The translations under genes were made by a program, and so were the position numbers. A model generated the notes under the pieces. The model did not search any database and was not told where the DNA came from. It saw only the letters and a list, made by a program, of their open reading frames with translations. From NCBI RefSeq assembly GCF_000756655.1, contig NZ_ARXU01000007.1, positions 1-64,000 on the forward strand: DNA of 64,000 nt, in the 5' to 3' direction. Source of the DNA: Alcanivorax jadensis T9 (GTDB taxonomy: Bacteria; Pseudomonadota; Gammaproteobacteria; Pseudomonadales; Alcanivoracaceae). This document shows positions 1,256 through 63,766 of this stretch, in pieces (positions within the stretch are counted from its first letter, which is position 1; the number at the start of each line of letters is the position of its first letter).

Positions 1256-1345
1256 GACAAGCTTCAAGCCACAAGCCCAAACAAAGAAAGCACCGGCGTT
1301 GCCGGTGCTCTGGTTTTCCTTGCAGCTTGTAGCTTGAGGCAGCTG
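1256..1345. repeat. Heptad inverted repeat around the secA terminator
   Basis: The left arm (1256-1278) is made of CAAGCTT, CAAGCCA and CAAGCCC-like heptads. The right arm (1318-1345) holds their reverse complement (TTGCAGC, TTGTAGC, TTGAGGC). The right arm ends directly at the secA stop codon (1346-1348). The terminator hairpin lies between the arms. Same design as the blocks at 24.8, 25.3, 29.8, 48.5, 59.9 and 63.7 kb. Confidence 0.75.
1280..1310 (-). terminator. Rho-independent terminator after secA
   Basis: Nine-base-pair stem AGCACCGGC/GCCGGTGCT with a 3-nt loop (1289-1309). On the minus strand it is followed by a T-rich run, TTTCTTTGTTT. Confidence 0.75.
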
Positions 1346-4060
1346 TTATTCAATCTTGCCGTGGCACTGCTTGTATTTCTTGCCCGAGCCACAAGGGCAA
1401 GGTTCATTACGACCCACCTTTCGACCTTCGCGAACCACGGTCTTGGTACCATCAGCCTGATTGTTCTGGCCGGCCGTACCATCAGTGCCCGGTTCCGGAG
1501 CCGCCTGCATCTTCATTTTTTCTGCCTGACGAAGGGCTTCTTCCTGGCGCTGCTGCTCGAGGCGCTCCACTTCGTCATCACGTCGAACCTGGAAGCTGTG
1601 CAGCACTCGAATCAGCTCATGCTGGATCTGGTTGAGCAGCCCCTGGAACAACTCGAAAGACTCTTTCTTGTATTCCTGCTTGGGGTTCTTCTGCGCATAG
1701 CCGCGCAGATGAATGCCCTGACGCAGGTGGTCCATGCTGGCCAGATGCTCTTTCCAGTGACGGTCGAGGATCTGCAGCATCAGGTGTTTCTCGATCTTGC
1801 GCAGGTCTTCGACGCCGATCTCCCCTTCCTTGCGCAGATAGTCCTGCTCCAGGGCTTCTACCAGCTTCTCGATGACACCGTCTATGTGCATCTGGTTGTC
1901 TTCGTTGAGCCACTGGCCCACCGGTGCATTGCACTGGAATTCTGCCTCCAGGGTTTTCTCCAGGCCCGGCACATCCCACTGGTCTTCCACGGAACCCGGC
2001 GGCAAGTAACTGTGCACCAGCTCGGTCACCACATCATAACGAATGCCTTGCACGGAGGTGCGCAGGTCGTCGGTTTCCAGAATCTGGTCGCGCTGGGTGT
2101 AGATCACGCGACGCTGGTCATTGGCCACGTCATCGTATTCCAGCAGGTTCTTGCGGATATCGAAGTTACGCCCTTCCACCTTGCGCTGGGCATTCTCGAT
2201 GGCACGGGTCACCCAGCGGTGCTCAATGGCCTCGCCGTTCTCCAGCCCCAGGGAGCGCATCATGTTGCGAATGCGGTCCGAGGCGAAAATCCGCATCAGG
2301 TCATCTTCCATTGACAGGAAGAAGCGGGTGTAGCCCGGATCACCCTGACGACCGGCACGACCGCGGAGCTGGTTATCGATACGGCGAGACTCGTGACGCT
2401 CTGTGCCGATGATATGCAGGCCGCCAGCTTCCATCACGGTGTCATGGTTACCCTGCCACTCGGAGCGAATTTTTTCCGCTTCCTTGTCCGAGGGGGTATC
2501 CATGTGCTTGATCTGCTCTTCCGGATTGCCCCCCAGCACGATATCGGTACCGCGACCCGCCATGTTGGTGGCGATCGTTACCGCACCGGGACGACCCGCC
2601 TGGGCAATAATCTGTGCTTCACGCTGGTGGAACTTGGCGTTCAGTACCTCGTGGGCAATCTTGTCTTTTTTCAGGCGCTGGGAGAGATACTCGGACGATT
2701 CAATGGTCGCGGTACCCACCAGCACCGGGGCACCCTTGGCCACCGCTTCGCTGATTTCCTTGACGATGGCGTCGAATTTTTCTTCCAGTGTCAGATACAC
2801 CAGATCATTGGCATCAACACGGACCATGGGCCGATTGGTCGGCACCACCACCACATCCATGCCATAAATCTGACGGAATTCCAGGGCCTCGGTATCAGCC
2901 GTACCGGTCATACCCGCCAGCTTGTTGTAGAGGCGGAAGTAGTTCTGGAAGGTGGTAGATGCCAGGGTCTGGTTTTCCTGCTGGATATTCACCCCTTCTT
3001 TGGCTTCGATCGCCTGGTGAATGCCCTCGGACCAGCGACGTCCGGGCATGGTACGGCCGGTGTGCTCGTCAACGATAACGATCTGGTTGTTCTGAACAAT
3101 ATAGTCCCGGTCCACATGGAATAAAGCGTGGGCCTTCAGCGCCGCATGAACATGATGAAGCAGCGCCAGGTTATGAGCTGCGTAAAGGCTTTCGCCCTGC
3201 TCCAGCAGGCTATTACTGACCAGCAGCGCCTCAATCTTCTGATGTCCGGTTTCCGTCAACTCGACCTGACGCTGCTTTTCATCAACAAAGTAATCGCCTT
3301 CCTGCTCTTCCGTCTCGGCAGTGAGTCTTGGCATCAGTTTATTGACGGCCGCATACAGCTCGGAGGAATCGGCTGACGGCCCGGAAATGATAAGCGGAGT
3401 GCGGGATTCGTCGATGAGGATGGAATCCACCTCATCCACAATCGCGTAGTTAAGACCACGCTGAACCCGGTCTTCCAGGCGAAAGGCCATGTTGTCGCGC
3501 AGGTAGTCGAACCCGTACTCGTTGTTGGTACCGTAGGTAATATCAGACGCGTAGGCCGCCCGCTTCTCATCGGTGGGCTGCTGGGAAAGAATCACACCAA
3601 CACTGAGGCCCAGAAATTCGTAAAGGGGCCGCATCCAGTTAGCGTCCCGCTCGGCCAGATAGTCATTCACTGTGACCACGTGCACGCCTTCGCCGGACAG
3701 CGCATTCAGATACGCCGCCAGGGTCGCGGTCAGGGTTTTACCCTCACCGGTGCGCATTTCGGAAATACGACCCTCATGCAGAGCGATACCGCCCATCATC
3801 TGCACGTCGAAATGACGCATACCCATCACCCGGGTGGAGGCTTCGCGCACCACCGCAAAGGCTTCCGGCAGCAATTCATCCAGGGTCTTGCCGTCCTGGA
3901 ACGCCTGACGGAATTCACGGGTCTTGAGCTGCAGGTCCGCTTCGCTGAGCTGTGCCAGCGCTTCCCCGTGGCTGTTGATCGTTTCGACCAACTTGGCCAT
4001 GCGTTTCAGCTCACGATCATTCTTGGTGCCGATGATTTTTTTTACGATGGTACCCAGCAT
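1346..4060 (-). CDS. secA: Preprotein translocase ATPase SecA
   Basis: SecA is the motor that pushes unfolded preproteins through SecYEG. The 904-residue length is normal. Visible features are the Walker A segment RTGEGKT (residues 103-109), the Walker B region [12 protein letters not shown] near residue 210, helicase motifs such as [10 protein letters not shown], and a C-terminal zinc-binding tail [13 protein letters not shown]. That tail binds SecB in relatives. No secM leader was found upstream. On the minus strand a TAGAAT box at 4133-4138 could be the -10 of its promoter, but I see no convincing -35. It is followed by its own terminator and argJ. Confidence 0.98.
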
Positions 4061-4194
4061 ACAACTTCCGGTTCGGTAAAAAGTCAGGACAAATAGCCCG
4101 TTGGCGGCAAAGTGCTGGCCGCAAGGTGAGCCATTCTAAACACAATAAGATGAAGAGATAAGGTGGTATTCCCGGTTATCAAGGGTGCTTAACC

Positions 4195-4223
4195 AAAAAC
4201 GGCCCCTTGTAGGGGCCGTTTTT
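4195..4223 (-). terminator. Terminator after the M23 peptidase gene
   Basis: AAAAAC-GGCCCC-TTGTA-GGGGCC-GTTTTT, a symmetric GC stem with T tails on both strands. It lies 11 bases past the stop codon of the M23 peptidase gene and separates it from the secA promoter region. Confidence 0.9.
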
Positions 4224-4233
4224 CGCCTGTTAT

Positions 4234-5166
4234 TCAACGTCGGGCGCGGTAAATATAGGGCTGAGGGTTCACCTGAGCGCCATTTTTAAGCACTTCATAA
4301 TGAATGTGCGGGCCGGTGGAGCGACCGGAATTGCCTACTTTGCCGATAACGTCCCCGGTGCGAACAATCTCACCCGGCTCCACCAGTAATTCCAGGGCAT
4401 GCCCATAGCGGGTGGCAATACCATTGCCGTGGTTGATTTCCACCATCAGGCCATAGCCGGAGCGGTCACCGGAATAGGTCACGACACCGGCGCCGGTGGC
4501 AATAATCGGTGTGCCTTCCTTGCCGGCAAAATCCACCCCTTTATGCCAGGCCACACGGCCGGTGAACGGATCAGAACGACGCCCGAAGCGGCTGGACATC
4601 CAACCCTTGGCCAACGGCCGGCCGGACAGGTAGGTTTGGTCTTGGATCTGCTTGCCGGCCAGCAGGTTTTCCAGAATCTCCAGCTGACGCTCGCGGCGTT
4701 CCAGGGTTTGCGCCATCTGGTTCACCGCTTCCATAAAGGAAGGCAATTCGTAGCTGGCACCCTCCTCCGAGCCTTCCGGTCCACCCAAGCCAGGGACAGT
4801 GCTGAAATCAAACTCTTCGCCGTCAATATCGGCCACTTCCACCAGCCGCTCACCCAGCGCATCCAGCCGAACCAGACGAGCCTGGGCCTGGGCCAATTTC
4901 AGGGTCAGTGCCCGGAACTGCTCCTGGCTGAGTCGATCCAGGGATTCCAGGGCTTTTTGCTGCTCTTCCAGATGGGTGGAGAAACGTTCGGTCATTACCG
5001 GCGTATACTCGGGCTGATCGCTGAGTTGCGACACCAGTAGGTAGCCGCCAACACCCATCAGCACCGGCACAACCACCAGCACGGCAGCCAGTAACCAGGG
5101 CCAGTGTCGCGGAACCGGAAGTGTGCGCGAATGGCCACGCTTGCTGTTAATGACTAAGATATTCAT
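4234..5166 (-). CDS. M23 family metallopeptidase (LytM domain), membrane-anchored
   Basis: A 310-residue protein with a basic N-terminus, one membrane segment (about residues 24-47), a long Q/E/L-rich coiled coil (about 60-180) and a C-terminal LytM/M23 domain. The zinc and catalytic motifs HKGVD and HIHYE are intact, so it is likely an active murein endopeptidase, unlike EnvC/NlpD-type activators that have lost them. The ATG at 5166 is preferred over a TTG eight codons upstream, although neither has a strong ribosome binding site. Pseudomonas has the same gene between secA and dciA. The exact peptidoglycan target cannot be told from sequence. Confidence 0.88.
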   Translation of the reverse strand: MNILVINSKRGHSRTLPVPRHWPWLLAAVLVVVPVLMGVGGYLLVSQLSDQPEYTPVMTERFSTHLEEQQKALESLDRLSQEQFRALTLKLAQAQARLVRLDALGERLVEVADIDGEEFDFSTVPGLGGPEGSEEGASYELPSFMEAVNQMAQTLERRERQLEILENLLAGKQIQDQTYLSGRPLAKGWMSSRFGRRSDPFTGRVAWHKGVDFAGKEGTPIIATGAGVVTYSGDRSGYGLMVEINHGNGIATRYGHALELLVEPGEIVRTGDVIGKVGNSGRSTGPHIHYEVLKNGAQVNPQPYIYRARR

Positions 5167-5267
5167 AAATTCGTGTAACGCACCGGCCAAAAATTAAGAA
5201 ATTCAAATAGTTGCACTGGTTTTCTTGATTGTTTTTTACAATTTGCAGGCTAGTCTAAGTAAAACCT

Positions 5268-5726
5268 ATGAGCAAGACAACTTCGCCCAAAGCCCTGCTC
5301 GCACTGCTAAGTGGTCATCCTACTCTCTCTGGTCTAACCAGGGAGGCCAAAAAGACCGCTCGCCAGGAGCCGGACACCGCAGCAGCCCCCGACCCGCTTG
5401 ACTGCCTGCCGCCGGCACTGCGCGAGCGGGTCACCCTGGTGGAAGACAGCATGCGCTGGCTGGCCATTGCCGAAACCAGCGCCACTGCGCAGCTATTGCG
5501 TTTTCATCTGCCCAAACTGCAGCAGGCCCTGCCCGGCCAGCAGATCAAGATCGTGGTGGGCGGCAAACGCCAGATGCAGAAAAGCAACGTCCGTGCCAAC
5601 CAACAGGACAAGCCCAGATTGGCCAGAGAAAGCGCCAGACAAATTGCCGATCTGGCTGACACCATTGAGGACAAAGGCCTCAAGGCATCCTTGCAGCGGC
5701 TGGCCAGCCGCGGTGAATCAGAATAA
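5268..5726 (+). CDS. dciA: DUF721 family protein, DciA-like helicase loader
   Basis: A 152-residue protein with the DUF721 fold in its middle (about 45-100) and a basic, flexible C-terminal tail. DciA proteins load the replicative helicase DnaB in bacteria without DnaC, including Pseudomonas. The identification rests on length, the segment AQLLRFHLPKLQQALPG, and conserved position between the M23 peptidase and lpxC. It is transcribed divergently from the M23 gene across an AT-rich 101-bp gap. Confidence 0.82.
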   Translation: MSKTTSPKALLALLSGHPTLSGLTREAKKTARQEPDTAAAPDPLDCLPPALRERVTLVEDSMRWLAIAETSATAQLLRFHLPKLQQALPGQQIKIVVGGKRQMQKSNVRANQQDKPRLARESARQIADLADTIEDKGLKASLQRLASRGESE

Positions 5727-5735
5727 TTCGCGTAT

Positions 5736-5957
5736 GTAGGAACGTAGCGTAGCGAAGTAACGCCCACAGGGCGGCCCCGTAGGGGTGAGCACAGCTAATA
5801 ACCCATGCTCGCATGGCGAAACGAGCCTCAGCGAGGACAAGGCGGTGCGGGTTGCTCCCGATCTATCCAGTGAGACCTGTCGAGCCCGGATATTCCTGAT
5901 CGCCCTGCGGGCGATTTCCTCGCTGCGCGAGGTTCGCCATGCGAGCATGGCTCCTAC
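5736..5957. repeat. REP-like palindromic element, copy 1
   Basis: This fills most of the 329-bp gap between dciA and lpxC. It starts with GTAGGAACG and ends with GGCTCCTAC, and contains several hairpins, for example CGCCCTGCGGGCG and CATGCTCGCATGG, the latter repeated inverted near the end. The block CTGATCGCC...GGGCGATTTCC...CGCG..GGTTCGC also occurs in the element at 36.3 kb, so the two are copies of one family. No coding potential seen. Confidence 0.75.
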
Positions 5958-5984
5958 AAAAAAATCTTGTCTTCCCTGAAACGA

Positions 5985-6020
5985 AAAACCACCCGGCGGC
6001 GGGAGAACCGCCGGGTGGCA
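5985..6020 (-). terminator. Terminator after lpxC
   Basis: An 11-bp stem CCACCCGGCGG/CCGCCGGGTGG (5989-5999 and 6008-6018). Read on the minus strand it is followed by TTTTTCGTTT. It lies 36 bases past the lpxC stop codon. Confidence 0.85.
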
Positions 6021-6055
6021 ACAGGGTTTCGACGTTTACAGCGTGCAGCCGGGTA

Positions 6056-6973
6056 TTACTCGGCCGCCGCGAGCACGGGTCGCATGTACGACACTGGCGC
6101 ATCGGTGGCATCTTCGAAGGTCACCACCTCGTAGGAATCCTCCTGACGGAGAATCTCGCGCAGCAGGGCATTGTTGAGGGCATGGCCGGATTTGTGACCG
6201 ATGAACTCGCCGATCAGGCTGTGACCCAGCAGATACAGGTCGCCGATGGCATCCAGCATCTTGTGCTTGACGAATTCGTCCTCGTAACGCAGCCCGTCCT
6301 CGTTGAGGATGCGATACTCATCCACCACGATGGCGTTATCGACACTGCCGCCCAGCGCCAGATTCTGGCTGCGCAGGAACTCGATATCGCGCATGAAGCC
6401 GAACGTCCGCGCCCGCGCCACTTCCTTCACAAACGAGGTCGTGGAGAAGTCGATGCTGGACACCTGGTTACGCTCTTCAAACACCGGGTGGTCGAATTCG
6501 ATGGAGAAGGTCACCTTGAAGCCATCAAAGGGAACGAAAGTCGCTGACTTGTCGCCCTCACGCACCGTGACTTCTTTCTTGATGCGGATGAACTTCTTGG
6601 CCGCTTCCTGCTCCTTGATGCCAGCAGACTGCAGCAGGAACACAAAAGGACCGGCACTGCCGTCCATGATCGGCATTTCCGGCGCGGACAGCTCCACGAA
6701 GGCGTTATCGATGCCCAGCCCTGCCATGGCAGACAGGAAATGCTCCACCGTGCCCACCTTCACGCCATCCTGAACCAGGGTCGACGACAAAGTGGTCTCG
6801 CGGACGGCATCGGCAGACGCCTTGATCTCCACCACCGGATCCAGGTCCACACGCCGGAACACGATACCGGTATCCACCGGTGCCGGGCGTACGGTCATGT
6901 AGACCTTTTCGCCGGTGTGAAGTCCCACGCCGGTGGCGCGGATCACGTTTTTCAGCGTTCGTTGTCTGATCAT
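6056..6973 (-). CDS. lpxC: UDP-3-O-acyl-N-acetylglucosamine deacetylase LpxC
   Basis: LpxC carries out the committed, zinc-dependent step of lipid A synthesis. The 305-residue length is typical. The zinc ligands are visible as His78 (TVEHFLSA), His237 and Asp241 ([10 protein letters not shown]), with the catalytic His264 in GHKSGH. It is the last gene of the division cluster. A TATAAT box in the ftsZ-lpxC gap and a hairpin in the leader suggest at least partly separate transcription. Confidence 0.98.
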
Positions 6974-6990
6974 CAGTCTGTCACACAGCT

Positions 6991-7013
6991 GCGGGTATCC
7001 TGCAGGATACCGC
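6991..7013 (-). other. Hairpin in the lpxC leader
   Basis: GGTATCC-TGCA-GGATACC flanked by GCG/CGC gives a stem of seven or more base pairs about 20 bases before the lpxC start codon. There is no T tail on the minus strand, so it looks like a leader structure and not a terminator. Function unknown. Confidence 0.45.
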
Positions 7014-24788: not shown

Positions 24789-24855
24789 GGCGAGAGCGAC
24801 GAGTCACGAAAGGCAAACCCCGGTTCGGGTATTCGCTTCTCGCAACTCGCATCTC
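24789..24855. repeat. Heptad inverted repeat downstream of rnpB
   Basis: On the minus strand GCGAGTT, GCGAGAA and GCGAATA lead into a hairpin CCCGAACCGGGG. TCGTGAC, TCGTCGC and TCTCGCC follow in the opposite sense. It probably acts as the rnpB 3' terminator region. Confidence 0.6.
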
Positions 24856-24864
24856 ATACTGAAA

Positions 24865-25229
24865 AGGTGGACCGGTCGATAAGCCGGGTTCTGTCGTGGA
24901 CAGTCATTCATCTGGGGCTTGCGTCGCCACAAACCTCTAGCAACCTACCCGGATCCAGCGCGGGCCACGCCAACGGATCCCTATTTGGTCTTGCTCCGGG
25001 TGGGGTTTACCCTGCCACCACTGTTGCCAGCGGCGCGGTGCGCTCTTACCGCACCTTTTCACCCTTACCGGTTCCTTCCAAAGGAGGGAACAGGCGGTAT
25101 CTTCTCTGTGGCACTAGCCGTAGCCACACCGTCACCAGTGTAGCCCCCAGGCGTTACCTGGCACCCTGCCCTGTGGAGCCCGGACTTTCCTCCAGCGGCT
25201 ACGCCGCCAGCGACTGTCTGACCGATCCG
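24865..25229 (-). ncRNA. rnpB: RNase P RNA (class A)
   Basis: The catalytic RNA that matures tRNA 5' ends. On the minus strand the conserved core appears in order: GACAGTCGC, GGAGGAAAGTCCGGGCTCC, ACAGGGCAGGGTGCCAGGTA, a GAAAAGGTGCGGTAAGAGC-type block, and AGAACCCGGCTTATCG near the 3' end. The ends were set by pairing GGATCGGTC (25220-25228) with GACCGGTCC near 24867-24875 to form helix P1. The exact ends are uncertain by a few bases. Confidence 0.95.
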
Positions 25230-25235
25230 GGGCGG

Positions 25236-25265
25236 AGTTTAGGGGACGGCAATGAAAAACACCAA
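25236..25265 (-). promoter_or_regulatory. Candidate rnpB promoter
   Basis: Minus-strand TTGGTG (25260-25265), 18-bp spacer, TAAACT (25236-25241), seven bases before the predicted RNA 5' end. Its -35 borders the left arm of the neighbouring heptad repeat. Confidence 0.45.
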
Positions 25266-25425
25266 TTGATAATTGAGAATGGATAATTGATAACTTGCGG
25301 AACAGGGCGCCAAGTCCAGAAACGCAAGAGGCCGCGTCCAAACGATTGGTCGCGGCCTCTTGCGTTCAAAGACAGCAAAGCGCCAGTCCGCGTCGTTATT
25401 AATTATCCATTCTCAATTATCAATT
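25263..25425. repeat. Heptad inverted-repeat element, GTCCAA core, copy 1
   Basis: The left arm 25263-25294 is TTGATAA, TTGAGAA, TGGATAA, TTGATAA. The right arm 25395-25425 is its near-perfect reverse complement. In the centre is a perfect 16-bp stem AACGCAAGAGGCCGCG (25321-25336) with its complement at 25351-25366. The right arm supplies the last codon and stop of rsmI. The core AGAGGCCGCGTCCAA recurs in the 48.5 kb element. Confidence 0.85.
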
Positions 25426-29898: not shown

Positions 29899-30233
29899 GT
29901 AGCTCGTAGCTCGTAGCTCGTAGCTCGTAGCTCGTAGCTCGTAGCTCGTAGCTCGTAGCTCGTAGCTCGTAGCTCGTAGCTCGTAGCTCGTAGCTCGTAG
30001 CTCGTAGCTCGTAGCTCGTAGCTCGTAGCTCGTAGCTCGTAGCTCGTAGCTCGTAGCTCGTAGCTCGTAGCTCGTAGCTCGTAGCTCGTAGCTCGTAGCT
30101 CGTAGCTCGTAGCTCGTAGCTCGTAGCTCGTAGCTCGTAGCTCGTAGCTCGTAGCTCGTAGCTCGTAGCTCGTAGCTCGTAGCTCGTAGCTCGTAGCTCG
30201 TAGCTCGTAGCTCGTAGCTCGTAGCTCGTAGCT
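29899..30233. repeat. Perfect GTAGCTC tandem array, 47.9 copies
   Basis: 335 bases made of 47 perfect copies of GTAGCTC plus GTAGCT, with no interruption that I can find. It fills the whole space between the T run of the dolP terminator and the A run of the sspB terminator. All plus frames hit TAG every 21 bases. Minus frames are open (repeating Glu-Leu-Arg-Ala-Thr-Ser-Tyr) but have no start codon, so it is not coding. The copy number probably varies between strains. Confidence 0.97.
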
Positions 30234-44466: not shown

Positions 44467-44732
44467 GAGCCTATTCATGGCCTCTTCACAACCGCGCCGG
44501 AGTCAATTTTGTTGCCAGCTCGTGATGGCGATTTTGTAGTGTAGTCATTCTACATGAACAAGCGCCATCGCGGGCTGGCGGCAAAAGGGGCCCGGCCCTT
44601 CGGGTTGCCGCTAAAAATGGCCCCATGCTGTGTTATGAACCTTGAACTTGACCCGTCAGGCCCTGCGGTTCATGCCTTGCCTGGGACCATTTTTAGCGGC
44701 AACGCGGTTGTGAAGAGACCCTGAATAGGCTC
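44467..44732. mobile_element. Nested-palindrome element with 30-bp terminal inverted repeats (MITE-like)
   Basis: The terminal arms at 44467-44496 and 44703-44732 match at 28 of 30 bases (GAGCCTATTCA..CTCTTCACAACCGCG). Inside are a second imperfect palindrome (44507-44544 against 44550-44585) and a third (GTTGCCGCTAAAAATGG at 44604-44625 against 44682-44703, 21 of 22 bases). No transposase frame is present. It takes up most of the 435-bp gap before zapG; 44358-44466 shows nothing else recognisable. Confidence 0.6.
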
Positions 44733-47396: not shown

Positions 47397-48509
47397 ATGG
47401 GGGCATTGTCGGTGATCAGAGCCTTTCGTTTTTTTGCCGGACCGATCCTGGCGGGCCTGGCCGTGGGCCTGGCTGTGCTGTGGTGGTACGAGTGGGGCCC
47501 CAATGCCCGACCCGGTCGCTATGACAGCGGCACCGCCAGCTATGCCGGCGCGGTCAACCACGCCGCCCCGGCGGTGGTCAATATCTTCACGACCCAGATT
47601 CTCGCCAGCGAGGATGTGCCGGAAGACCCCCTATTCAACCGCTTCATGGAAGAACCCCGCCGGGAACGGGCACTGAACAGCCTGGGCTCCGGGGTAATCG
47701 TGGACGACAAAGGCTACATCCTCACCAGTTATCACGTAATCCGCGATGCGGACGAAATCCTGGTAGCCCTGCGCGATGGTCGCGACGCCCCGGCACGGGT
47801 AGTCGGCACTGACCCGGAAACCGATCTGGCCCTGCTCCATGTGGCGCTGGAGGACCTGCCGGAAGTGGAACTCAATGGCAACGGCCCGGTGCAGGTAGGT
47901 GATGTGGTGCTGGCCATCGGCAACCCGCTAGGCGTGGGCCAGACCGTCTCCATGGGCATTGTCAGCGCCACCGGGCGCAGCCATCTGGGCATTGCCACCT
48001 TCGAAAACTTCATCCAGACCGACGCGGCCATCAACCGGGGCAACTCCGGCGGCGCCCTGATTGATACCCGCGGCCATCTGATCGGCATCAACACCGCTAT
48101 TCTCTCGGCGGATGGCAGCTGGCAGGGCATCGGCTTCGCCACCCCGGCCTCCATTGCCCGGGAAGTGATGCGCGACCTGATCGACCATGGCCGGGTAATT
48201 CGCGGTTACCTGGGCGTCACCGTGCAGGATATTACCCCATCCCTGGCCGAAACTTTCGGCATGGATCAGGTCCGTGGCGGCGTGATCACCGAAGTGGTCA
48301 TCGACAGCCCCGCCCACAAGGGCGGCCTGCAACCCGGCGATGTGCTGGTGGGCATCAACGACATCGCCATGGCCGACGGCTACGAAGCCATGAACCGCAT
48401 CGCCGGCATGAAACCGGACGAGAAAGTCAGCCTCAACATCGTCCGCAATCGCCAGCCCCTGACCGTGGATGTGGTCATTGGTACACGGCCGCCGGCGGAA
48501 ACGGAATGA
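47397..48509 (+). CDS. algW: Periplasmic serine protease AlgW/DegS
   Basis: About 370 residues: membrane anchor (about 8-30), trypsin-like domain with His in TSYHVI, Asp in TDLALL and Ser in GNSGGAL, then one PDZ domain (about 275-360; GYLGVTVQDITPSLAE). One anchor and one PDZ mark DegS/AlgW and not DegP. It starts the cleavage of the anti-sigma factor (RseA/MucA) under envelope stress. ATG at 47397 chosen; a TTG at 47334 is also open. Next to the his genes as in Pseudomonas. Confidence 0.92.
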   Translation: MGALSVIRAFRFFAGPILAGLAVGLAVLWWYEWGPNARPGRYDSGTASYAGAVNHAAPAVVNIFTTQILASEDVPEDPLFNRFMEEPRRERALNSLGSGVIVDDKGYILTSYHVIRDADEILVALRDGRDAPARVVGTDPETDLALLHVALEDLPEVELNGNGPVQVGDVVLAIGNPLGVGQTVSMGIVSATGRSHLGIATFENFIQTDAAINRGNSGGALIDTRGHLIGINTAILSADGSWQGIGFATPASIAREVMRDLIDHGRVIRGYLGVTVQDITPSLAETFGMDQVRGGVITEVVIDSPAHKGGLQPGDVLVGINDIAMADGYEAMNRIAGMKPDEKVSLNIVRNRQPLTVDVVIGTRPPAETE

Positions 48510-48512: not shown

Positions 48513-48680
48513 TTAATTGATAGTTGATAATGGATAATTGATAACGTCGCGAGCCTGTCTTGCGGTTATCCTGAAAGCAAAGAGGCCGCGTCCAATGACT
48601 TGAGCGCGGCCTCTTTGCTTTCAGATTATTCCTGCGCTTGATCGCGCAGTTATCAATTATCCATTATCAACTATCAATTG
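48513..48680. repeat. Heptad inverted-repeat element, GTCCAA core, copy 2
   Basis: The left arm 48513-48545 is TAATTGA, TAGTTGA, TAATGGA, TAATTGA and starts four bases after the algW stop. The right arm 48649-48680 is its reverse complement and ends five bases before the stop of the convergent DUF4139 gene. In the centre is a perfect 20-bp stem (48571-48590 and 48605-48624) containing AGAGGCCGCG, with loop TCCAATGACTTGAG. It likely acts as a two-way terminator. Confidence 0.88.
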
Positions 48681-50389: not shown

Positions 50390-50630
50390 AAAAGATTTTT
50401 TTACCACAGAGGACACAGAGCTCACTGAGAAAAAGATAAACCCGGGCGGCCCGCGTAGGGTGCACTGAGCCTAAGGCGAACTGGACCCTACGCATTCTGC
50501 AATGGATGTTTTATCAACGGCAGAATCGCGCCGCCAGCGACGTTCCTACACGAAAGGCTTTCACCACAGGTTACCGAGCCAGCCTTTTTCTCTGTGTGCT
50601 CGGCGCCCTCTGTGGTGAAAAAAGATTTTT
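50390..50630. repeat. Nonamer inverted repeat downstream of hisC
   Basis: Left arm 50390-50436 (TTTACCACAGAGG-ACACAGAG-CTCACTGAG) and right arm 50581-50630 (CTCTGTGTG, CTCGGCGCC, CTCTGTGGT) have a 9-bp period and are inverted copies. Inside is a second palindrome, GCGTAGGGT...ACCCTACGC (50453-50493). It fills most of the 362-bp gap after hisC. Confidence 0.75.
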
Positions 50631-51743: not shown

Positions 51744-51925
51744 AAAAGATTTTTTACCACAGAGGGCACAGAGTTCATTGAGGAAGAGACAGCTCGTTTC
51801 CTATCGCGATCATAGAAGGCCCACGTAGGGTGCCGTTCGCTACGCTCAGTACACCCACACCACAGACTCTTCCCGACTTCAGACAAGAGCACTGTTTTTT
51901 TACTCTGTGGCCTCTGTGGTGAAAA
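51744..51925. repeat. Nonamer inverted repeat between hisD and hisC
   Basis: Left arm 51744-51790 (TTTTACCACAGAGGGCACAG...) and right arm 51896-51925 (CTCTGTGGC, CTCTGTGGT). The right arm ends five bases before the hisD stop codon. A GTAGGGTGC segment lies between. Confidence 0.75.
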
Positions 51926-53258: not shown

Positions 53259-53404
53259 TTTTTTACCACAGAGGGCACAGAGTTCAGTGAAAGGAAGGCG
53301 GGTCTTTTTCTATCACAGAGATCAACAAAGCCTCTCGCTCAAAAGCACACCGAACCGGTAAGTTTTTTTTACTCTGTATGCTCTGTGACCTCTGTGGTGA
53401 AAAG
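53259..53404. repeat. Nonamer inverted repeat between hisG and hisD
   Basis: Left arm 53259-53296 (TTTTTTACCACAGAGGGCACAGAG...) and right arm 53362-53404 (CTCTGTATG, CTCTGTGAC, CTCTGTGGT). The right arm ends three bases before the hisG stop. Same family as the other two his-operon elements. Confidence 0.78.
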
Positions 53405-57550: not shown

Positions 57551-58054
57551 ATGCCCATGCAACTGTCGTCCATTGATACACAGAACCTGCGCCTGATGGC
57601 CTTCGACGTGGACGGGGTGATGACCGACGGGCGCATCTACTTCAGCCCGGAAGGCGAAGCCATCAAGGTCTTCAACACCCTGGACGGCCACGGCCTGAAA
57701 AAACTGGCCGCCAGCGGCGTCACCCTGGCCATCATCACCGGTCGCAACACGCCCATGGTGGCCAAACGCGCCGCCGACCTGGGCATCGCTCATGTGATAC
57801 AGGGCCGCGAAGACAAGGGGGTGGCCCTGGCCGATCTGGCGCAACAGCTAGGCATCGCCGCCAGCGAGACCGGCTATGCCGGCGATGACGAACCCGACGT
57901 GAGCGCCCTGGACTGGGCCCAGCTCAGTTTTGCCCCGGCCAATGCCCATGACTGCGCCAAGGCAGCTGCCGACCACATTACCGAACGGCGCGGCGGCGAA
58001 GGCGCGGTTCGCGAAATCTGCGACGCCATCCTCGCGCAACGGAGCCCAGCATGA
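57551..58054 (+). CDS. kdsC: Kdo-8-phosphate phosphatase KdsC
   Basis: 167 residues, a cap-less HAD phosphatase with the nucleophile motif FDVDGVMTDG, ITGRNTPMV and GYAGDDEPDV. Hydrolyses Kdo-8-phosphate to Kdo. Overlaps lptC by four bases. Confidence 0.96.
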   Translation: MPMQLSSIDTQNLRLMAFDVDGVMTDGRIYFSPEGEAIKVFNTLDGHGLKKLAASGVTLAIITGRNTPMVAKRAADLGIAHVIQGREDKGVALADLAQQLGIAASETGYAGDDEPDVSALDWAQLSFAPANAHDCAKAAADHITERRGGEGAVREICDAILAQRSPA

Positions 58055-58608
58055 AGCGCCAGGGCTTGCTCAGCGCCACCGGCATCCTGATGCTGGGGCT
58101 GGTCATGCTGATGACCCTGCACGAGTGGGATGACTCCCTGCCGGGCCAGGAGGATGCCATCCTCACCGCGCCAGCCATCGTCGCCAAGGACATTACAGCA
58201 CGCGCCTTTAGTGAAGATGACGGCCGTCTCCAGTACTATCTCACCGCCGAGACGCTGACCCAGTACGACCACAACCCGCTCACGGAAATGCAGCAACCTG
58301 AGCTGGAAATGGCCAACGACAAAGGCAGCTGGACCATTGTCAGCGAGCAGGGCGTGGTGCAGGAAAATGGCGACCTGATTGTTTTCTCCGGCGACGTGAC
58401 AGCCAGCAATCAGCAACAGAAAATCACCCTGGATACCCAGGAGCTGCGCTTTCTCAGCGAGACCAACATCGCCAGCTCTCCCGGGGATGTTGACATAGAA
58501 TTTGAATCCGGCAAGACCCGCGCGGGTGCGCTGGAGGCCGATCTCGACAAGGGCATACTGACCCTTGAAAAAGGAGTAAAGAGTGAGTTTGATGCGCCGG
58601 CTTCTTAG
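58051..58608 (+). CDS. lptC: LPS export protein LptC
   Basis: 185 residues: one N-terminal membrane helix (LLSATGILMLGLVMLMTL) and a periplasmic beta-jellyroll domain (ITARAFSEDDGRLQYYLTAETL...). Takes LPS from LptBFG and hands it to LptA. Overlaps lptA by 26 bases. Confidence 0.94.
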   Translation: MKRQGLLSATGILMLGLVMLMTLHEWDDSLPGQEDAILTAPAIVAKDITARAFSEDDGRLQYYLTAETLTQYDHNPLTEMQQPELEMANDKGSWTIVSEQGVVQENGDLIVFSGDVTASNQQQKITLDTQELRFLSETNIASSPGDVDIEFESGKTRAGALEADLDKGILTLEKGVKSEFDAPAS

Positions 58609-59149
58609 AACCTGCACCATCGCCCTGGCTGCGGCCCTGCCGGTGAGCACAGTGGCCGCCCCACCGCAAATGCCAGTTTCCGTCACCGCCGACTCGGGGC
58701 GTTTCGAACAGGACGCCGGCAGCGGGCTTTATCGCGGCAATGTGGAACTGATACAGGGCAAGCGGAAACTGTTTGCAGACGAAATGCGCCTGTTTACCCG
58801 CAATGGCGAACTGATCCGCGTGGAAGCGTCCGGCACCCCGGTGCGCATGGAAGAAGGTGAGGACCTGCAGGCCCACGCCAACAACCTGGTCTACGATATT
58901 CGCCAACGCACCCTGGTACTTACCGGCGACGCTTACATTGAACACCTGGGCAACACCTTCGAAGGCGCCAAGGTGGAGTACAGCCTGGATTCCAAGCGGG
59001 TTGACGCCAGCAGCGAAGGCGACAAGCGTGTGCGACTGGTGATCCCTGCCGAAAATCAGACGCCCAAGGAAGACACTCCTGCGGACAACAATACAAACGA
59101 AGAGGCGCCCGTAGAGCCCTCCTCCGAGGCGGAGCCAAACACCCTATGA
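58583..59149 (+). CDS. lptA: LPS periplasmic bridge protein LptA
   Basis: 188 residues: signal peptide ending near STVAA, an OstA/LptA jellyroll (about 30-140; [35 protein letters not shown]), and an acidic, low-complexity tail rich in E, P and N. A GTG start at 58583 is six bases from AAGGAG; an ATG three codons later is possible. Overlaps lptB by four bases. Confidence 0.93.
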
Positions 59150-59871
59150 GCCATTTACGTGCCCACCACCTGGCAAAAAGCTACAAGGGTCGCCGAGTCA
59201 TCGAGGATGTCTCCCTGGACGTGGAGGCCGGCCAGATCGTCGGCCTGCTCGGCCCCAATGGCGCCGGCAAGACCACCTGCTTCTACATGATTGTCGGCCT
59301 GGTGGAAGCGGACGCCGGGCGAATCGACATCAACGAGGCGGATATCACCCATCTGCCCATGCATGGCCGCGCCCAGCGCGGCATCGGCTATCTGCCACAA
59401 GAAGCCAGCATCTTCCGCCGCCTGACCGTGGAAGAAAACATCATGGCGATCCTGGAAACCCGCAAGGAGCTCAGCAAGGCGGATCGCCACGAGCGCATGG
59501 AGAGCCTGCTCAAGGAATTCCATATCACCCATATCCGTGATTCCCTGGGCATGAGCCTGTCCGGCGGTGAACGACGTCGGGCAGAAATCGCCCGCGGTCT
59601 GGCCACCGACCCGGATTTCATCCTGCTGGATGAACCCTTCGCCGGCGTGGACCCGATTTCCGTGAACGACATCAAGGGCATCATCCGCCACCTGAAAGAG
59701 CGCGGCATCGGCGTGCTGATCACCGATCACAACGTGCGCGAAACCCTGGATATCTGTGACACCGCCTATATTGTCAGCGCCGGGCACATTATCGCCTCCG
59801 GCGACGCCGACACCATTCTCGGTAACCAGCAGGTGCGGGATGTGTACCTGGGGGCCGATTTCAGGCTGTAA
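59146..59871 (+). CDS. lptB: LPS export ABC transporter ATPase LptB
   Basis: 241 residues. Walker [11 protein letters not shown]-loop YLPQEAS, signature LSGGERRR, Walker [14 protein letters not shown] and H-loop [10 protein letters not shown]. Powers LPS extraction with LptF and LptG. Followed by a heptad inverted repeat that separates it from rpoN. Confidence 0.97.
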
Positions 59872-59875
59872 ACAA

Positions 59876-60036
59876 ATTGACAGTTGATAGTGGACAGTTG
59901 ACAGCTACGCGATAAAGGCACTTGGTTCTGAAGCCCTTTGAGGGCCGCGCCCAAACTTTAAACGCAGCCTCAGACATTGCAGATAAAGACAGGATTCCCC
60001 GCGACGCTGTCAACTGTCCACTATCAACTGTCAACT
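59876..60036. repeat. Heptad inverted-repeat element after lptB
   Basis: The left arm 59876-59905 contains CAGTTGA, TAGTGGA and CAGTTGA and starts four bases after the lptB stop. The right arm 60007-60036 is its almost perfect reverse complement. The middle has a decayed version of the GGGCCGCGCCCAA core seen at 25 and 48 kb. Confidence 0.85.
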
Positions 60037-60134
60037 TTGCTCTCTAGCACACAACCATCATTGGCACAAATATTGCTTGCCTTATGCATAGGCTGTTATT
60101 CTCGTGTTTTGGGGATGACATCAGCCTGAGCAGT

Positions 60135-61601
60135 ATGAAGCCAAGCCTACAACTACAAATCGGCCAGCAGCTGACCATGACACCGCAGCTGCAGCAGGCC
60201 ATTCGCCTCTTGCAGCTATCCACGCTGGACTTGCGTCAGGAGATTCAGCAGGCAGTGGAAAGCAATCCGTTGCTGGAGCTGGCTGATGATTTCGGTGACG
60301 AATCCCTGCCTGACGCTGACGAAGAACGTCAGGACGAACAGGAGCTGGATACCGAGCGTGACGACGCTCTGGAAGAGTTCGTGGACGACGAACCCGGCAT
60401 CGAAACGGAATGGGACGATGTCTATTCCGGCCAGACCAGCAGTGCCTCCAGCGCCCTCCCCGACGATGCCGACGACTGGCAACAACGCCATAGCATTGCC
60501 GGCAATCTTCAGGACCACCTGCTCTGGCAACTGAATCTGACCCCCATGAGCGATGTAGACCGCATTATCGCCATGACCATCATCGAGTCCCTGGACGATC
60601 GCGGCTACCTGACCGTCACCGTGGACGAGATCGTAGCGATGATGAACGCCCAGGATGACCTGCTCACCGAAGGCGACGAACTGGAAGCCGATGAAGTACT
60701 GGCAGTTCAGCACCGCCTGCAGCAATTCGATCCGGTAGGGGTCGCCAGCCTGGATCTGGCCGACTGCCTGCGGGTGCAGTTGCGCCAACTCCCCACAGAC
60801 ACTCCCTTTCTGGACTATGCCCTGGCCCTGCTGGGGCATCTCGCGCTGCTGGAAAAGCACGACTACGCCGCCCTGCGCCGGGTACTGCAGATCAGCGAAG
60901 AAAACCTGCTCGACGCGCTCTCGCTGCTGCGCACCCTGGACCCGGCACCCGGCGAACAGATCGGTGAAAGCCAGGTGGATTACGCGGTGCCGGACGTGAT
61001 TGTGCGCCAGCACCAGGGACGCTGGCAGGTCAGCCTGAATGAGGAAGTGCTGCCCAAGGTCAACCTGCAGCAGCAGTACGCCTCCATGGCCCGCAAGGCC
61101 GGTGGCGAGGATGGTCAGTACCTGCGCAACTGCGTGCAGGAGGCCAAGTGGTTCATCAAGAGCCTCCAAAGCCGCCACGACACCCTGCTGAAGGTGGCCA
61201 CCCGCATCGTTGAAGTTCAACAAGACTTCTTTGACTATGGCGAGGAGGCAATGAAACCGCTGGTTCTGGCCGAGATTGCTGATGCCGTCGAGATGCACGA
61301 ATCGACCATCAGTCGGGTCACCAACCAGAAATACATGATGACACCCCGCGGCGTCTTTGAGCTCAAGTATTTCTTCTCCAGCCACGTGGGAACAGACGGC
61401 GGCGGTGAGTGTTCCTCCACCGCTATTCGTGCCATTATTAAGAAGCTGGTCGCTGCCGAGAATCCCCGCAAGCCGCTTAGCGACAACAAGCTGGCTAGCT
61501 TGTTGAACGAGCAGGGGATCAACGTGGCGCGCCGGACAGTCGCCAAGTATCGTGAGGCGATGAGAATACCGTCATCCAGCGCCCGCAAGCGTTTGGTGTA
61601 G
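60135..61601 (+). CDS. rpoN: RNA polymerase sigma-54 factor RpoN
   Basis: 488 residues. Region I is rich in Q and L (MKPSLQLQIGQQLTMTPQLQQAIRLLQ), an acidic region II follows (about 55-110), then the core-binding region, and the RpoN box ARRTVAKYRE near the C-terminus. Reads -24/-12 promoters with enhancer-binding proteins. ATG at 60135 fits the family start; a longer frame from 60084 is unlikely. Followed by hpf, ptsN, rapZ and ptsO, the standard rpoN cluster. Confidence 0.97.
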   Translation: MKPSLQLQIGQQLTMTPQLQQAIRLLQLSTLDLRQEIQQAVESNPLLELADDFGDESLPDADEERQDEQELDTERDDALEEFVDDEPGIETEWDDVYSGQTSSASSALPDDADDWQQRHSIAGNLQDHLLWQLNLTPMSDVDRIIAMTIIESLDDRGYLTVTVDEIVAMMNAQDDLLTEGDELEADEVLAVQHRLQQFDPVGVASLDLADCLRVQLRQLPTDTPFLDYALALLGHLALLEKHDYAALRRVLQISEENLLDALSLLRTLDPAPGEQIGESQVDYAVPDVIVRQHQGRWQVSLNEEVLPKVNLQQQYASMARKAGGEDGQYLRNCVQEAKWFIKSLQSRHDTLLKVATRIVEVQQDFFDYGEEAMKPLVLAEIADAVEMHESTISRVTNQKYMMTPRGVFELKYFFSSHVGTDGGGECSSTAIRAIIKKLVAAENPRKPLSDNKLASLLNEQGINVARRTVAKYREAMRIPSSSARKRLV

Positions 61602-61640
61602 GCGCCGGGACGGCCCAACGAGCAGGTAAAGGAGTCAGCC

Positions 61641-61943
61641 ATGCAAATTAATATCAGCGGTCATCACCTGGAAATTACCGATGCTTTGCGAGCCTACGTA
61701 GGAGACAAATTCTCCCGTCTTGAACGGCATTTCGACCAGATTACCAGTGTCCAGGTGATTCTTTCTCCGGAACCCAAAACCCACAAGGCAGAATCCACCA
61801 TCCATATTTCCGGGGCCGACGTCTTCGCCACCGCTGAAGCAGTGGACATGTACGCTGCCATCGACAAGCTGACTGACAAGCTCGACCGCCAGATCCTCAA
61901 ACACAAGGAAAAGGCTGTCAGCCACAAGCACGGCGGCCACTGA
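61641..61943 (+). CDS. hpf: Ribosome hibernation promoting factor HPF
   Basis: 100 residues, short type (MQINISGHHLEITDALRAYVGDKFSRLERHF; AAIDKLTDKLDRQILKHKEK). Binds 30S subunits and helps form 100S dimers in stationary phase. AAAGGAG precedes the ATG. Confidence 0.95.
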   Translation: MQINISGHHLEITDALRAYVGDKFSRLERHFDQITSVQVILSPEPKTHKAESTIHISGADVFATAEAVDMYAAIDKLTDKLDRQILKHKEKAVSHKHGGH

Positions 61944-61959
61944 ACCCAAAGCGACAATT

Positions 61960-62433
61960 ATGCGAGTTCGCGAACTACTCACCGAAGCACGCACCCATAG
62001 CGAGGTGCAGGCCAGCAGCAAGAAACAGCTGCTGGACCAGGTTGCGCAGCTGGCCGCGGCCGGCTGCGACAGCCTCAACGAACAGGAGGTCTTCGATGCC
62101 TTGGTAGCCCGGGAAAAGCTGGGCTCCACGGGCATCGGTGAAGGCATCGCCATTCCTCACTGCCGTCTTGGTCACTGCCAGCAACCCATCGGGCTGCTGC
62201 TGAAACTGTCTACCCCCATCGATTTCGACGCCGTTGACGGTCGTCCGGTAGATCTGGTTTTTGTGCTGCTGGTTCCCCAGGAAAACCCTGAACAGCACCT
62301 GAAAACCCTCAGCCACCTGGCTTCCCTGTTCAACGACGACGATTACCGTGACGAACTGCGATTGAGCAAGAACGATCATCACCTTTATCACACCGCCGTG
62401 GAATCCGAAGCGGAGCTGCGACTGGCATCATGA
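61960..62433 (+). CDS. ptsN: PTS IIA-like nitrogen regulatory protein PtsN
   Basis: 157 residues, an EIIA-Ntr domain with the phosphorylated His67 in GIAIPHCRLGH. Part of the PtsP-PtsO-PtsN phosphorelay that affects potassium, nitrogen and carbon regulation. 16 bases after hpf. Confidence 0.96.
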   Translation: MRVRELLTEARTHSEVQASSKKQLLDQVAQLAAAGCDSLNEQEVFDALVAREKLGSTGIGEGIAIPHCRLGHCQQPIGLLLKLSTPIDFDAVDGRPVDLVFVLLVPQENPEQHLKTLSHLASLFNDDDYRDELRLSKNDHHLYHTAVESEAELRLAS

Positions 62434-62530
62434 AGGAACGCAACACACTTTCAGGCATCACCCGGGATATCCCCTCGTCTATCAATTTTGCGTGTCAACG
62501 TGCGGCAAATAGCATGCAAGCGGTGCAACC

Positions 62531-63382
62531 ATGAAACTCACCATCATCAGCGGCCGATCCGGCTCGGGGAAAACCACCGCCCTGCAAGCCATGGAAGACC
62601 AGAACTACTACTGCGTCGACAATCTGCCGGTGGGCATGCTCCCGACACTGGCGGAGCAGCTTGATCAGGGTGAGCTACCCATAGAACGAGCGGCAGTAGG
62701 CATTGATGCCCGCAACCTGCCCACCCAGTTGCTGGCCTTTGATGCCATCCTTGATGCACTACACCAGCAGCAGGTAAAGACCGAAATTATTTACCTGGAT
62801 GCGGACGACAGCACTCTGCTGAAGCGCTTCAGCGCCACCCGGCGGCGTCACCCGCTGGGCGCCCAGCAGGGCTCCGTGGAGGCAGCCATTCAGCATGAGC
62901 GGGAATTGCTCTCCAATATCCGCCTGCGTGCCGACCTGGTGATCGACACCAGCAACTATGACGTTCACAGCCTGCGCAACCTGATGCGCGAGCGGGTAGC
63001 CAATCGCAGCGCGGCCCTGTCCCTGCAACTGGAATCCTTCGGGTTCAAGAACGGCTTGCCCAACGATGCCGATCTGGTGTTTGACGTGCGAGTACTGCCC
63101 AACCCGCACTGGCGGGCCGACCTGCGGCCCTTTACCGGCCGCGATGACGCCATCATCGATTTCCTCCAGCAGCACCAGGCCAGCCACGACATGCTTGATG
63201 ACATTCATCATTTCGTAAAACGCTGGCTGCCGGCGTTTGCTGACAGCGATCGCAGCTATGTGACGGTCGCCATCGGCTGCACCGGTGGCCGCCATCGTTC
63301 GGTATTCATTACCGAGCAACTGGCAAAACGGCTACGCAATGAGGGCACCACCCTTCAGGTCCGCCACCGCGAACTGGATTAG
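62531..63382 (+). CDS. rapZ: RNase adapter protein RapZ
   Basis: 283 residues: N-terminal kinase-like domain with Walker A SGRSGSGKTTAL (7-18) and DADDSTLLKRFSATRRRHPL; C-terminal domain with CTGGRHRSVFI, the RNA and metabolite binding segment. In E. coli it directs RNase E to the GlmZ sRNA to control GlmS; whether that holds here is not shown. 97 bases after ptsN. Confidence 0.96.
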   Translation: MKLTIISGRSGSGKTTALQAMEDQNYYCVDNLPVGMLPTLAEQLDQGELPIERAAVGIDARNLPTQLLAFDAILDALHQQQVKTEIIYLDADDSTLLKRFSATRRRHPLGAQQGSVEAAIQHERELLSNIRLRADLVIDTSNYDVHSLRNLMRERVANRSAALSLQLESFGFKNGLPNDADLVFDVRVLPNPHWRADLRPFTGRDDAIIDFLQQHQASHDMLDDIHHFVKRWLPAFADSDRSYVTVAIGCTGGRHRSVFITEQLAKRLRNEGTTLQVRHRELD

Positions 63383-63396
63383 GCTTCCACCACTCA

Positions 63397-63666
63397 ATGA
63401 TCGAAAAGCAACTGGATATCATCAACAAGCTTGGCCTGCATGCCCGTGCTGCCGCCAAGGTGGTCAGCGTGGCCTCACGCTATGAAAGCCGCATTCACGT
63501 CATTCACAACGGCAACCCCATCGACGCCAAAAGCATCATGGGGTTGTTGATGCTTGGCGCCGCCAAGGGCACCAGCGTTACCTTTCAGGTTGACGGCAAC
63601 GATGAAACCGCCGCCATGGAAGAACTCACCGATCTGTTCGGCCGCCGCTTTGACGAAGAAGAATGA
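63397..63666 (+). CDS. ptsO: Phosphocarrier protein NPr (PtsO)
   Basis: 89 residues, HPr-like fold with the phospho-accepting His15 in KLGLHARAAAKVV and SKS-like DAKSIMGLLML. Passes phosphate from PtsP to PtsN. Ends the rpoN cluster, followed by a heptad inverted repeat. Confidence 0.96.
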   Translation: MIEKQLDIINKLGLHARAAAKVVSVASRYESRIHVIHNGNPIDAKSIMGLLMLGAAKGTSVTFQVDGNDETAAMEELTDLFGRRFDEEE

Positions 63667-63671
63667 AAAAA

Positions 63672-63766
63672 CAGTTGATAGTTGATAGTTGACAGTTAAC
63701 AGTTAGGGGCTCGCTCGCGGCCAGCCTGTTTTTAGCTGTCCACTGTCAACTATCACCTGTCAACTG
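63672..63766. repeat. Heptad inverted-repeat element after ptsO
   Basis: Left arm: CAGTTGA, TAGTTGA, TAGTTGA, CAGTTAA, CAGTTAG from 63672, five bases after the ptsO stop. Right arm 63734-63766 reads CAGTTGA, CAGGTGA, TAGTTGA, CAGTGGA on the other strand. The core is GC-rich and shorter than in the other copies. It ends 12 bases before mgtE and so forms part of its leader. Confidence 0.82.

Follow-up and report, generated by a model that had tools for sequence, protein, structure and literature searches.

The region analyzed here (the window) is a 64,000-nucleotide stretch of the Alcanivorax jadensis T9 genome (contig NZ_ARXU01000007.1, positions 1 to 64,000), in which six intergenic gaps contain arms of degenerate tandem 7-bp units (heptads) standing in inverted orientation around a hairpin at gene ends. 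These gaps, designated S1 (1256-1345), S2 (24789-24855), S3 (25263-25425), S4 (48513-48680), S5 (59876-60036) and S6 (63672-63766), were held by the original prediction, which was made from the sequence alone, to share one design with arms that mostly abut stop codons. Their features and neighboring genes are as follows.

1256-1276, no strand: S1 left heptad arm, CAAGCTT type
1289-1309, minus strand: S1 GC-rich terminator-like hairpin of secA
1322-1345, no strand: S1 right heptad arm, abutting the secA stop codon (1346-1348, minus strand)
24789-24809, no strand: S2 left arm, GCGAGTT type, weak
24818-24829, no strand: S2 small GC hairpin
24833-24855, no strand: S2 right arm, 8 bp past the 3' end of the RNase P RNA
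24864-25229, minus strand: RNase P RNA gene, the neighbor separating S2 from S3
25264-25294, no strand: S3 left heptad arm, AATTGAT type
25321-25366, no strand: S3 core hairpin
25395-25425, no strand: S3 right heptad arm, containing the rsmI stop codon (25420-25422, minus strand)
48515-48552, no strand: S4 left heptad arm and CGCG box, 5 bp past a stop codon (48507-48509)
48571-48624, no strand: S4 core hairpin
48642-48679, no strand: S4 right heptad arm and CGCG box, with the stop of a convergent DUF4139 gene 5 bp on
59874-59911, no strand: S5 left heptad arm, AGTTGAC type, 2 bp past the lptB stop (59869-59871)
59940-59971, no strand: S5 decayed core
60000-60037, no strand: S5 right heptad arm, with rpoN lying downstream
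63672-63705, no strand: S6 left heptad arm, 5 bp past the HPr stop (63664-63666)
63733-63766, no strand: S6 right heptad arm

The common design is clear at S3, S4, S5 and S6, where inverted arms of ~25-38 bp are built of ~4-5 degenerate 7-bp units with strong lag-7 self-similarity. S1, at the end of secA, is weaker, being a short version with an inverted arm of only ~16 bp around a terminator-like hairpin, with a GC hairpin and a T tract both seen by eye. S2 is the weakest of the six, the inverted-pair search having given no pair at the settings used. It adjoins the RNase P RNA at its 3' end and not a stop codon, which leaves five of the six gaps with arms that abut a stop. The core that had been noted in two copies and a decayed third was recovered as such, with AGAGGCCGCGTCCAA present in S3 and S4 and a decayed form in S5. 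Heptad elements flank the RNase P RNA gene (24789-25425), S2 lying past its 3' end and S3 just upstream, and S3 is therefore also near the RNase P RNA promoter; in an Rfam scan of the window, only RNase P exceeded the gathering score.

A search of the A. jadensis genome (3.63 Mb in 29 contigs) with the S3 region yielded 81 matches at ~40 places (40 of 105 candidates were scored), the majority of which carry cores related to AGAGGCCGCGTCCAA. The usual order in this core family is an arm, a CGCG box, a free spacer, a hairpin (AAACGCAAGAGGCCGCGCCC...), a spacer, a CGCG box and the inverted arm, and a few of the matched places hold arms alone, a single arm or a different core. Across 57 parsed elements, arms measure ~25-38 bp and spans ~86-165 bp, with no gene inside, and the heptad units found are AATTGAT, AGTTGAC, AATTAAT, AGTTAAC, AGTTGAA and AGCTNNN. 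An arm template kept 57 of 85 records (28 failed), and among these 57 the fifth heptad position is G across all eight units in 22 elements and A in 19.

A de novo scan of 644 kb, comprising the window and 20 plus 9 further stretches, detected 111 inverted repeats compared to 5 in one dinucleotide shuffle. Both arms were periodic at lag 7 in 15 of these, at lag 9 in two and at lag 6 in one, with none at the other lags from 3 to 13, and one shuffle of the same 644 kb contained no inverted repeat with both arms periodic. With one element of a 9-mer family removed from the 15, an arm end lies within 10 bp of a stop codon in 12 of the remaining 14 (5.4% under random placement in gaps; binomial tail 5e-14) and within 5 bp in seven (null 3.0%; binomial tail 6e-8), so that the excess near stop codons on which the original prediction depended was found in this sample. 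According to gene calls from our own codon model, six of the 14 elements lie between convergent genes and eight between tandem genes, with none between divergent genes and none within genes. The 29 core-family elements comprise 21 convergent and eight tandem cases (two of them weak calls) and no divergent case, the background being 427 gaps that include 66 convergent and 67 divergent ones. Recurring heptad-arm palindromes at gene ends are thereby confirmed, and they are part of a genus-wide system.

The same gene ends were read in a genus set of 17 genomes, with counts in relatives covering S1 and S3 to S6. In the lptB-rpoN gap of most of these genomes, the element starts between a few and ~20 bases past the lptB stop, with a spelling of AGTTGAC in genomes G000 and G010, AGTTAAY in G001, G005, G008, G011, G014 and G016, AATTAAT in G003, G007 and G009, and an AGTTGAA-like unit in G006. 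At this slot, G002 and G013 hold a decayed element, a contig end truncates the one in G012, and G004, G015 and the other genera read have none. Under a period-7 inverted-arm rule, which misses some elements that were accepted by eye and parsed for interiors, the slot is filled in 12 of 17 genomes at S1, 12 of 17 at S3, 5 of 8 at S4, 11 of 16 at S5 and 13 of 17 at S6, and where some genomes lack the element of S5 or S6, the site is not cleanly empty. A contig of G020 (C4, L142; the genome is placed in another genus) is near-identical to the lptB-rpoN locus of the window and lacks exactly 14 bp, or two heptads in one arm, relative to S5; G020 also has a second lptB, 84% identical, and the contig is probably misbinned.

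An additional 12 slots (the k slots), picked for a core-family element in the A. jadensis genome, were read in three sister species (G001, G009 and G005). The 36 slot-by-genome combinations gave 30 loci, of which two were unreadable (a run of N and a contig end). Every one of the 28 readable orthologous slots is occupied by an element in the corresponding place, and none is empty. Both arms are visible in 27 of the 28, and k12 in G005 shows the left arm alone in the stretch read. Simple insertion at empty sites is thus unsupported at the 12 slots tested.

In order to compare occupants of the same slot, interiors were taken from 78 parsed elements at 16 slots; of 98 slot sequences, 13 had no parsed interior, S5 in G015 was left out as a false parse inside rpoN, and six interiors shorter than 45 bp were left out (k7 in G000 and G009, k10 in G001, and S6 in G000, G009 and G012). 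A pair was called homologous when it outscored every different-slot, different-genome comparison of either member. With heptad subtypes called by an automatic and crude procedure that assigns mixed-spelling units to one side, orthologous pairs have homologous interiors in 60 of 107 cases where the subtype is the same and in 5 of 168 where it differs. The contrast persists within the 12 chosen slots (9 of 9 and 2 of 29) and within S3-S6 (51 of 98 and 3 of 139), where about half of the same-subtype pairs have unrelated interiors under this strict rule. S3 contains seven occupant lineages in 15 genomes and k9 four in four, and S6 has a single lineage in the 10 genomes with interiors of at least 45 bp, with short and different interiors in G000, G009 and G012. 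As arm spelling and interior mostly change together, exchange of whole cassettes fits better than conversion of the arms only.

Occupants also differ in orientation and recur at separate loci. Eight of 65 homologous pairs are inverted, representing about five independent cases (S4 in G010; S5 between G000 and G010; k6; k8 in G009; and k11), with a weak further inversion at S5 between G001 and G005. Within the A. jadensis genome, near-alike interiors occur at separate loci with up to 91% identity and unrelated flanks (L003/L004). The mobile or gene-converting 3'-end element that had originally been proposed is therefore partly supported, as something recurrent and dispersed that behaves as if copied and exchanged, but not as something seen to insert into empty 3' ends (28 of 28 filled). 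Ancestry shared between loci, likewise proposed, is visible in the arms and cores common to several of them and was not shown for the CAAGCTT-like arms of S1 or the GCGAGTT-like arms of S2. Gene conversion of the arms alone is not supported as the main process given the link between arm type and interior, and may have acted at S3 and k8, where arms have changed around a shared interior.

Old cassettes could also have been moved together with their flanks by homologous recombination between species, possibly through transformation. The exchanges look exact at the slot, and a single genome can share its occupants with different species depending on the slot, G000 and G009 having common occupants at k5 and k6 and separate ones at k4, k8 and k9; both observations would suit such allelic exchange. 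However, mean flank identity over bins from 0 to 650 bp is 0.88-0.89 in 12 occupant-sharing pairs and 0.88-0.91 in 33 non-sharing pairs, so occupant sharing does not follow the flanks, and this process alone fails to explain the copies at unrelated loci or the inversions. Long-tract recombination carrying the flanks is accordingly unsupported by a flank-identity comparison whose power is limited because the species are about equally distant, and we regard allelic exchange as an unlikely explanation.

Sister genomes are dominated by different heptad spellings. In a count of four-unit arms that tolerated two mismatches, and in which arms longer than four units enter more than once, the ratio of TG arms (TTGA/TGGA) to TA arms (TTAA/TGAA) is 160 to 74 in G000 and 157 to 61 in G009, compared to 51 to 328 in G001 and 25 to 360 in G005. 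G015 has 7 TG and 0 TA arms, which is practical background; the reversed control of this count itself spells heptads that matched often and does not serve as a null. A concerted change of this kind, comparable to the dialects of uptake sequences (PMC3630211; here and below, statements on published work refer to the available excerpts of the papers cited), might be expected if the heptads were binding sites of a protein with drifting specificity, such that the arms within a genome shift jointly. However, unrelated spellings are found side by side in a single genome, and arm type is tied to the interior and not to the genome alone, which leaves this explanation with very little probability.

Where orthologues of the same lineage differ in arm length by at least 3 bp, the gap is 7 or 14 bp in 11 of 16 cases, while none of 15 interior gaps reaches 3 bp. 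The 31 orthologous pairs compared are not independent, 18 further arm gaps are of 1-2 bp, and these counts were made without the parser, which partly builds in arm lengths that are multiples of 7. The steps would fit slippage in units of one heptad, and the recurrent growth of arms suggested in the original prediction is to this extent sustained on a small scale. Taken further, the whole element could have grown in place around an existing terminator, by slippage and template switching in a cruciform with a polymerase that prefers seven, without any movement between loci. This would also accommodate published proposals that heptamers reflect a polymerase footprint (PMC4679880, PMC4692102), as well as extreme arms such as that at k7 in G005 (L319), where the left arm has grown to ~nine AGTGAAT units and the right remains at ~four, showing that arm lengths can differ greatly. 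A perfect GTAGCTC tandem of ~48 copies lies between two terminator-like hairpins in the window (29899-30233), with AGCT-type heptads beside a stop upstream, and resembles an AGCT-type arm after runaway expansion. Other genera show this design with units of unrelated spelling, such as GAATGCG at the HPr stop of Microbulbifer rhizosphaerae, which points in the same direction.

Growth in place is nonetheless unlikely, since interior and arm spelling change together (60 of 107 versus 5 of 168) and near-identical interiors occur at unrelated loci, and free slippage should erase a distinctive TG unit (usually the third) that persists in several spellings. In TG-type elements, the match between left and right arms is 25.84 of 30, compared to a maximum of 25.55 in 2,000 within-type shuffles. 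The corresponding match is less clear for TA-type elements (24.27, compared to 23.12 ± 0.39 and a maximum of 24.54 after shuffling), in which the in-register match is not better than the match shifted by one unit.

With regard to gene-end function, S3 and S4 are able to pair end to end, with folding z values of -15 to -20 versus shuffles, followed by S5 and S6 (-8 to -11) and S1 (-4 to -7); at S2, one strand alone is clearly better than its shuffles (-4.7 versus -1.6). In the 28 arms of the 14 de novo elements, stop codons occur in all three frames in 46% when read inward and 11% when read outward, with 59% and 0% in the elements bearing TTGA/TTAA. The values for the 57 template-kept elements (77% inward, 1% outward) are biased by a template that itself contains TTGA/TTAA, and the 46% and 11% are the fairer figures. 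Permuted heptads of equal composition are expected to have three-frame stops in 69% inward and 84% outward, so the inward value is accounted for by heptad composition together with a period not divisible by three, and the lack of outward stops is the notable part. On the 74 sides of the chosen slots, the entering reading frame stops inside the arm on 54 and just before it on 19; as any frame entering a stop-rich arm must end there, this tells where the genes end and not why.

Taken together, we consider these elements to be, on balance and with modest confidence, copyable and exchangeable two-way gene-end cassettes. What speaks for this at the level of the sequence is the design, the location, the retention of slots where tested, the linkage of arms and interiors, the inversions, the copies at unrelated loci and the 7-bp steps; from these we infer termination or 3'-end protection, a mechanism of exchange and selection for retention. 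Each cassette would be an end-to-end palindrome of ~90-170 bp, consisting of a heptad arm, a GC-rich hairpin and the same parts repeated in inverted orientation, that directly adjoins stop codons and, in the core family, lies mainly between convergent genes. In the AATTGAT and AGTTAAC families, the arm itself would often supply the stop codon. As seven is not a multiple of three, three heptads place a stop triplet in all three frames, and as the arm is inverted this supply would work from both sides. A transcript entering from either side would be predicted to fold into one long stem around the central hairpin, which should end or protect the transcripts of both neighbors. The slots tested persist through species divergence; whole cassettes would be exchanged into them, copied between them and flipped within them, and arm length often shifts in 7-bp steps. 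A tentative extension, which may well be wrong, is that the heptad arms let an incoming cassette replace the resident precisely at the stop codon, without flanking DNA, such that slots are kept as the set of cassettes turns over and the dominant spelling changes.

Several observations weigh against the cassette interpretation. G004, G015 and other genomes are without elements, or have lost them, at some S slots, and the k slots were chosen as already occupied by a core-family element in the A. jadensis genome. None of the 28 readable orthologous slots is a clean empty site, and insertion was thus not observed. At S3 (G002 with G003 and G008; G003 with G011) and at k8 (G009 with G001 and G005), the interior is kept and the arm type has changed; k1 between G000 and G001 or G005 is a borderline case of the same kind. 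The core-family hairpin is strong and its T run short (mean longest run 2.7), which is weak for an intrinsic terminator, so that protection of the 3' end or Rho-assisted termination is just as probable as an intrinsic mechanism. Three other de novo elements (AGCT-type and one AGTT-type) have three-frame stops in 0 of 6 arms inward and 50% outward, and eight elements from outside the genus or from cross-genus picks have no clear stop property (31% inward, 25% outward). A universal stop-codon role of the heptads is ruled out by the AGCT-type arms and unclear in the eight outside elements. No signal of target-site duplication was detected around 31 elements (mean longest direct repeat of 2.87 in the 15+15 bp flanks, compared to 3.05 for shuffled pairing), although the element ends are fuzzy and a very short duplication could escape. 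Finally, no enzyme was tied to the cassettes in a search for Y1 genes alone, and heptad arms are absent at all four Y1 loci checked.

These last observations bear equally on the possibility that the elements are non-autonomous, in the manner of miniature inverted-repeat transposable elements (MITEs) or REPINs, and are moved as single-stranded hairpins by a Y1 (HUH) transposase. The elements are dispersed, with terminal inverted repeats, small size and no internal gene, as in MITEs, and Y1 genes are present in 16 of the 17 genus genomes, the Y1-less G015 being nearly without heptad arms (7 and 0). However, G015 is a single case and no test, the usual Y1 partners are repeats of the GTAG type that the A. 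jadensis genome also contains (PMC3733652), and the missing duplication signal and the clean empty orthologous sites expected of a MITE, of which there were none at the 12 slots (28 of 28 filled), argue against such movement, as do the arm-free Y1 loci. We consider this origin doubtful, slightly more so than growth in place or allelic exchange.

The original prediction knew of no formal description of this design, and here it requires correction, as inverted pairs of heptad arrays are in print, though not for this system. Inverted pairs of GGGAATC heptad arrays have been described in Xanthomonas, where X. campestris has 70 of them and X. axonopodis has 75 (Rehm et al. 2015, PMC4692102). Like these, the elements described here are tandem 7-mers in inverted pairs, intergenic and near stop codons. 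The Xanthomonas unit is G-rich and was studied for quadruplexes, unlike the present units, which are not G-rich quadruplex formers, and the excerpted description contains no exchange of spelling, inversion or arm-supplied stops (PMC4692102). In Geobacter metallireducens, class 3 sites consist mostly of five tandem heptads (MTYCTGA), drawn as strand-switching, and 49 elements have four tandem heptads; as excerpted, these are proposed as regulatory or regulator-binding sites, not gene-end cassettes (PMC2700814). Heptanucleotides are the commonest longer simple repeat in most genomes according to earlier work cited in PMC4679880, which also contains the proposal of TAACTGA direct repeats as translational signals and a remark on their stops in all frames. 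Inverted repeats at stop codons have been reported in E. coli (PMC6060812).

Repetitive extragenic palindromes (REPs) and REPINs of the GTAG and CGTC superfamilies are interspersed palindromes downstream of genes, often inverted dimers, and share the preference for convergent and unidirectional gaps; families of long terminal inverted repeats are found in the same source (PMC3733652). Their units are 20-40 bp long, with GTAG or CGTC tags and, as excerpted, no heptad period (PMC3733652), whereas the heptad arms carry neither tag. A separate, abundant inverted-pair family, GTAGGAGC...GCGAA, in the A. jadensis genome looks like a REP/REPIN family of GTAG type (L009 7439-7549, L018 17712-17780, L025 8040-8122 and others). 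MITEs of the ERIC, NEMIS and RUP type are likewise ~100-200 bp long, with a strong stem and a dispersed distribution, and every frame contains stops in RUP and in the NEMIS of 155 bp, but these MITEs have short terminal repeats, and several have target duplications, in place of tandem heptads (PMC2229807). DNA uptake sequences also form inverted pairs at terminators with genome-specific spelling, but are common inside genes and serve transformation, unlike the arms described here, which lie at gene ends in several spellings per genome (PMC3630211).

Drosophila Foldback elements have long inverted ends of internal tandem repeats and are much larger, eukaryotic and transposable. No description of the present system was found in searches of open-license papers, and its evolutionary behavior, with stable slots and exchanged occupants, is unusual. 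Intergenic palindromes are commonly regarded as single insertions that later decay; in this system, the place appears stable and the palindrome exchanged, which would point to a replacement route that is undescribed as far as we found, or to strong selection for a two-way gene end. The 7-base preference of bacterial simple repeats thereby gains a concrete setting in inverted heptad arms at gene ends, and the cycling of stops through the frames offers one testable reason, in the stop-carrying families, for a unit length not divisible by three.

Inverted heptad arms with unrelated units are also found in other gammaproteobacterial genera. In 80 named gammaproteobacterial loci (1.57 Mb), among which the nearest relatives of the window's RpoN are those of Alcanivorax sp. 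NORP25 (89%) and an Alcanivoracaceae genome (86%), period-7 inverted arms number 11, compared to at most two for any other lag. L030 accounts for two of the 11, as orthologues of S5 and S6, about three seem attributable to chance, and six are clear, in Microbulbifer rhizosphaerae, Pseudidiomarina marina, Zobellella, Oceanimonas and, twice, the metagenome-derived gammaproteobacterium L092. The GAATGCG arms of Microbulbifer rhizosphaerae occupy the S6 slot, and none of this type was seen at the HPr stop in eight other Microbulbifer. A sample of 40 stretches of other genomes, some picked for an AGCT match and one from a family relative, had no period-7 excess (two at lag 7, two at lag 3 and one each at lags 10 and 11). 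An exact pattern matched 0 of 369 genomes, A. jadensis included, and is too strict to bear on distribution. An AGCT pattern, whose control also matched in several genomes, was found in 21 of 293 genomes of the order and 15 of 118 genera, mostly as long tandem arrays and not as inverted pairs.

Other repeats in the window include a short perfect GCGTCGG heptad array of 3.6 copies (1-25) and three elements of similar plan with inverted arms TTTTTACCACAGAGGGCACAGAG of an ~9-bp unit (50396-50623, 51751-51925 and 53260-53403). A 266-bp nested inverted repeat with ends GAGCCTATTC/GAATAGGCTC (44467-44732) is not built of heptads, and elements of a plan similar to it are found at L016 13495-13761 and L023 14235-14499.

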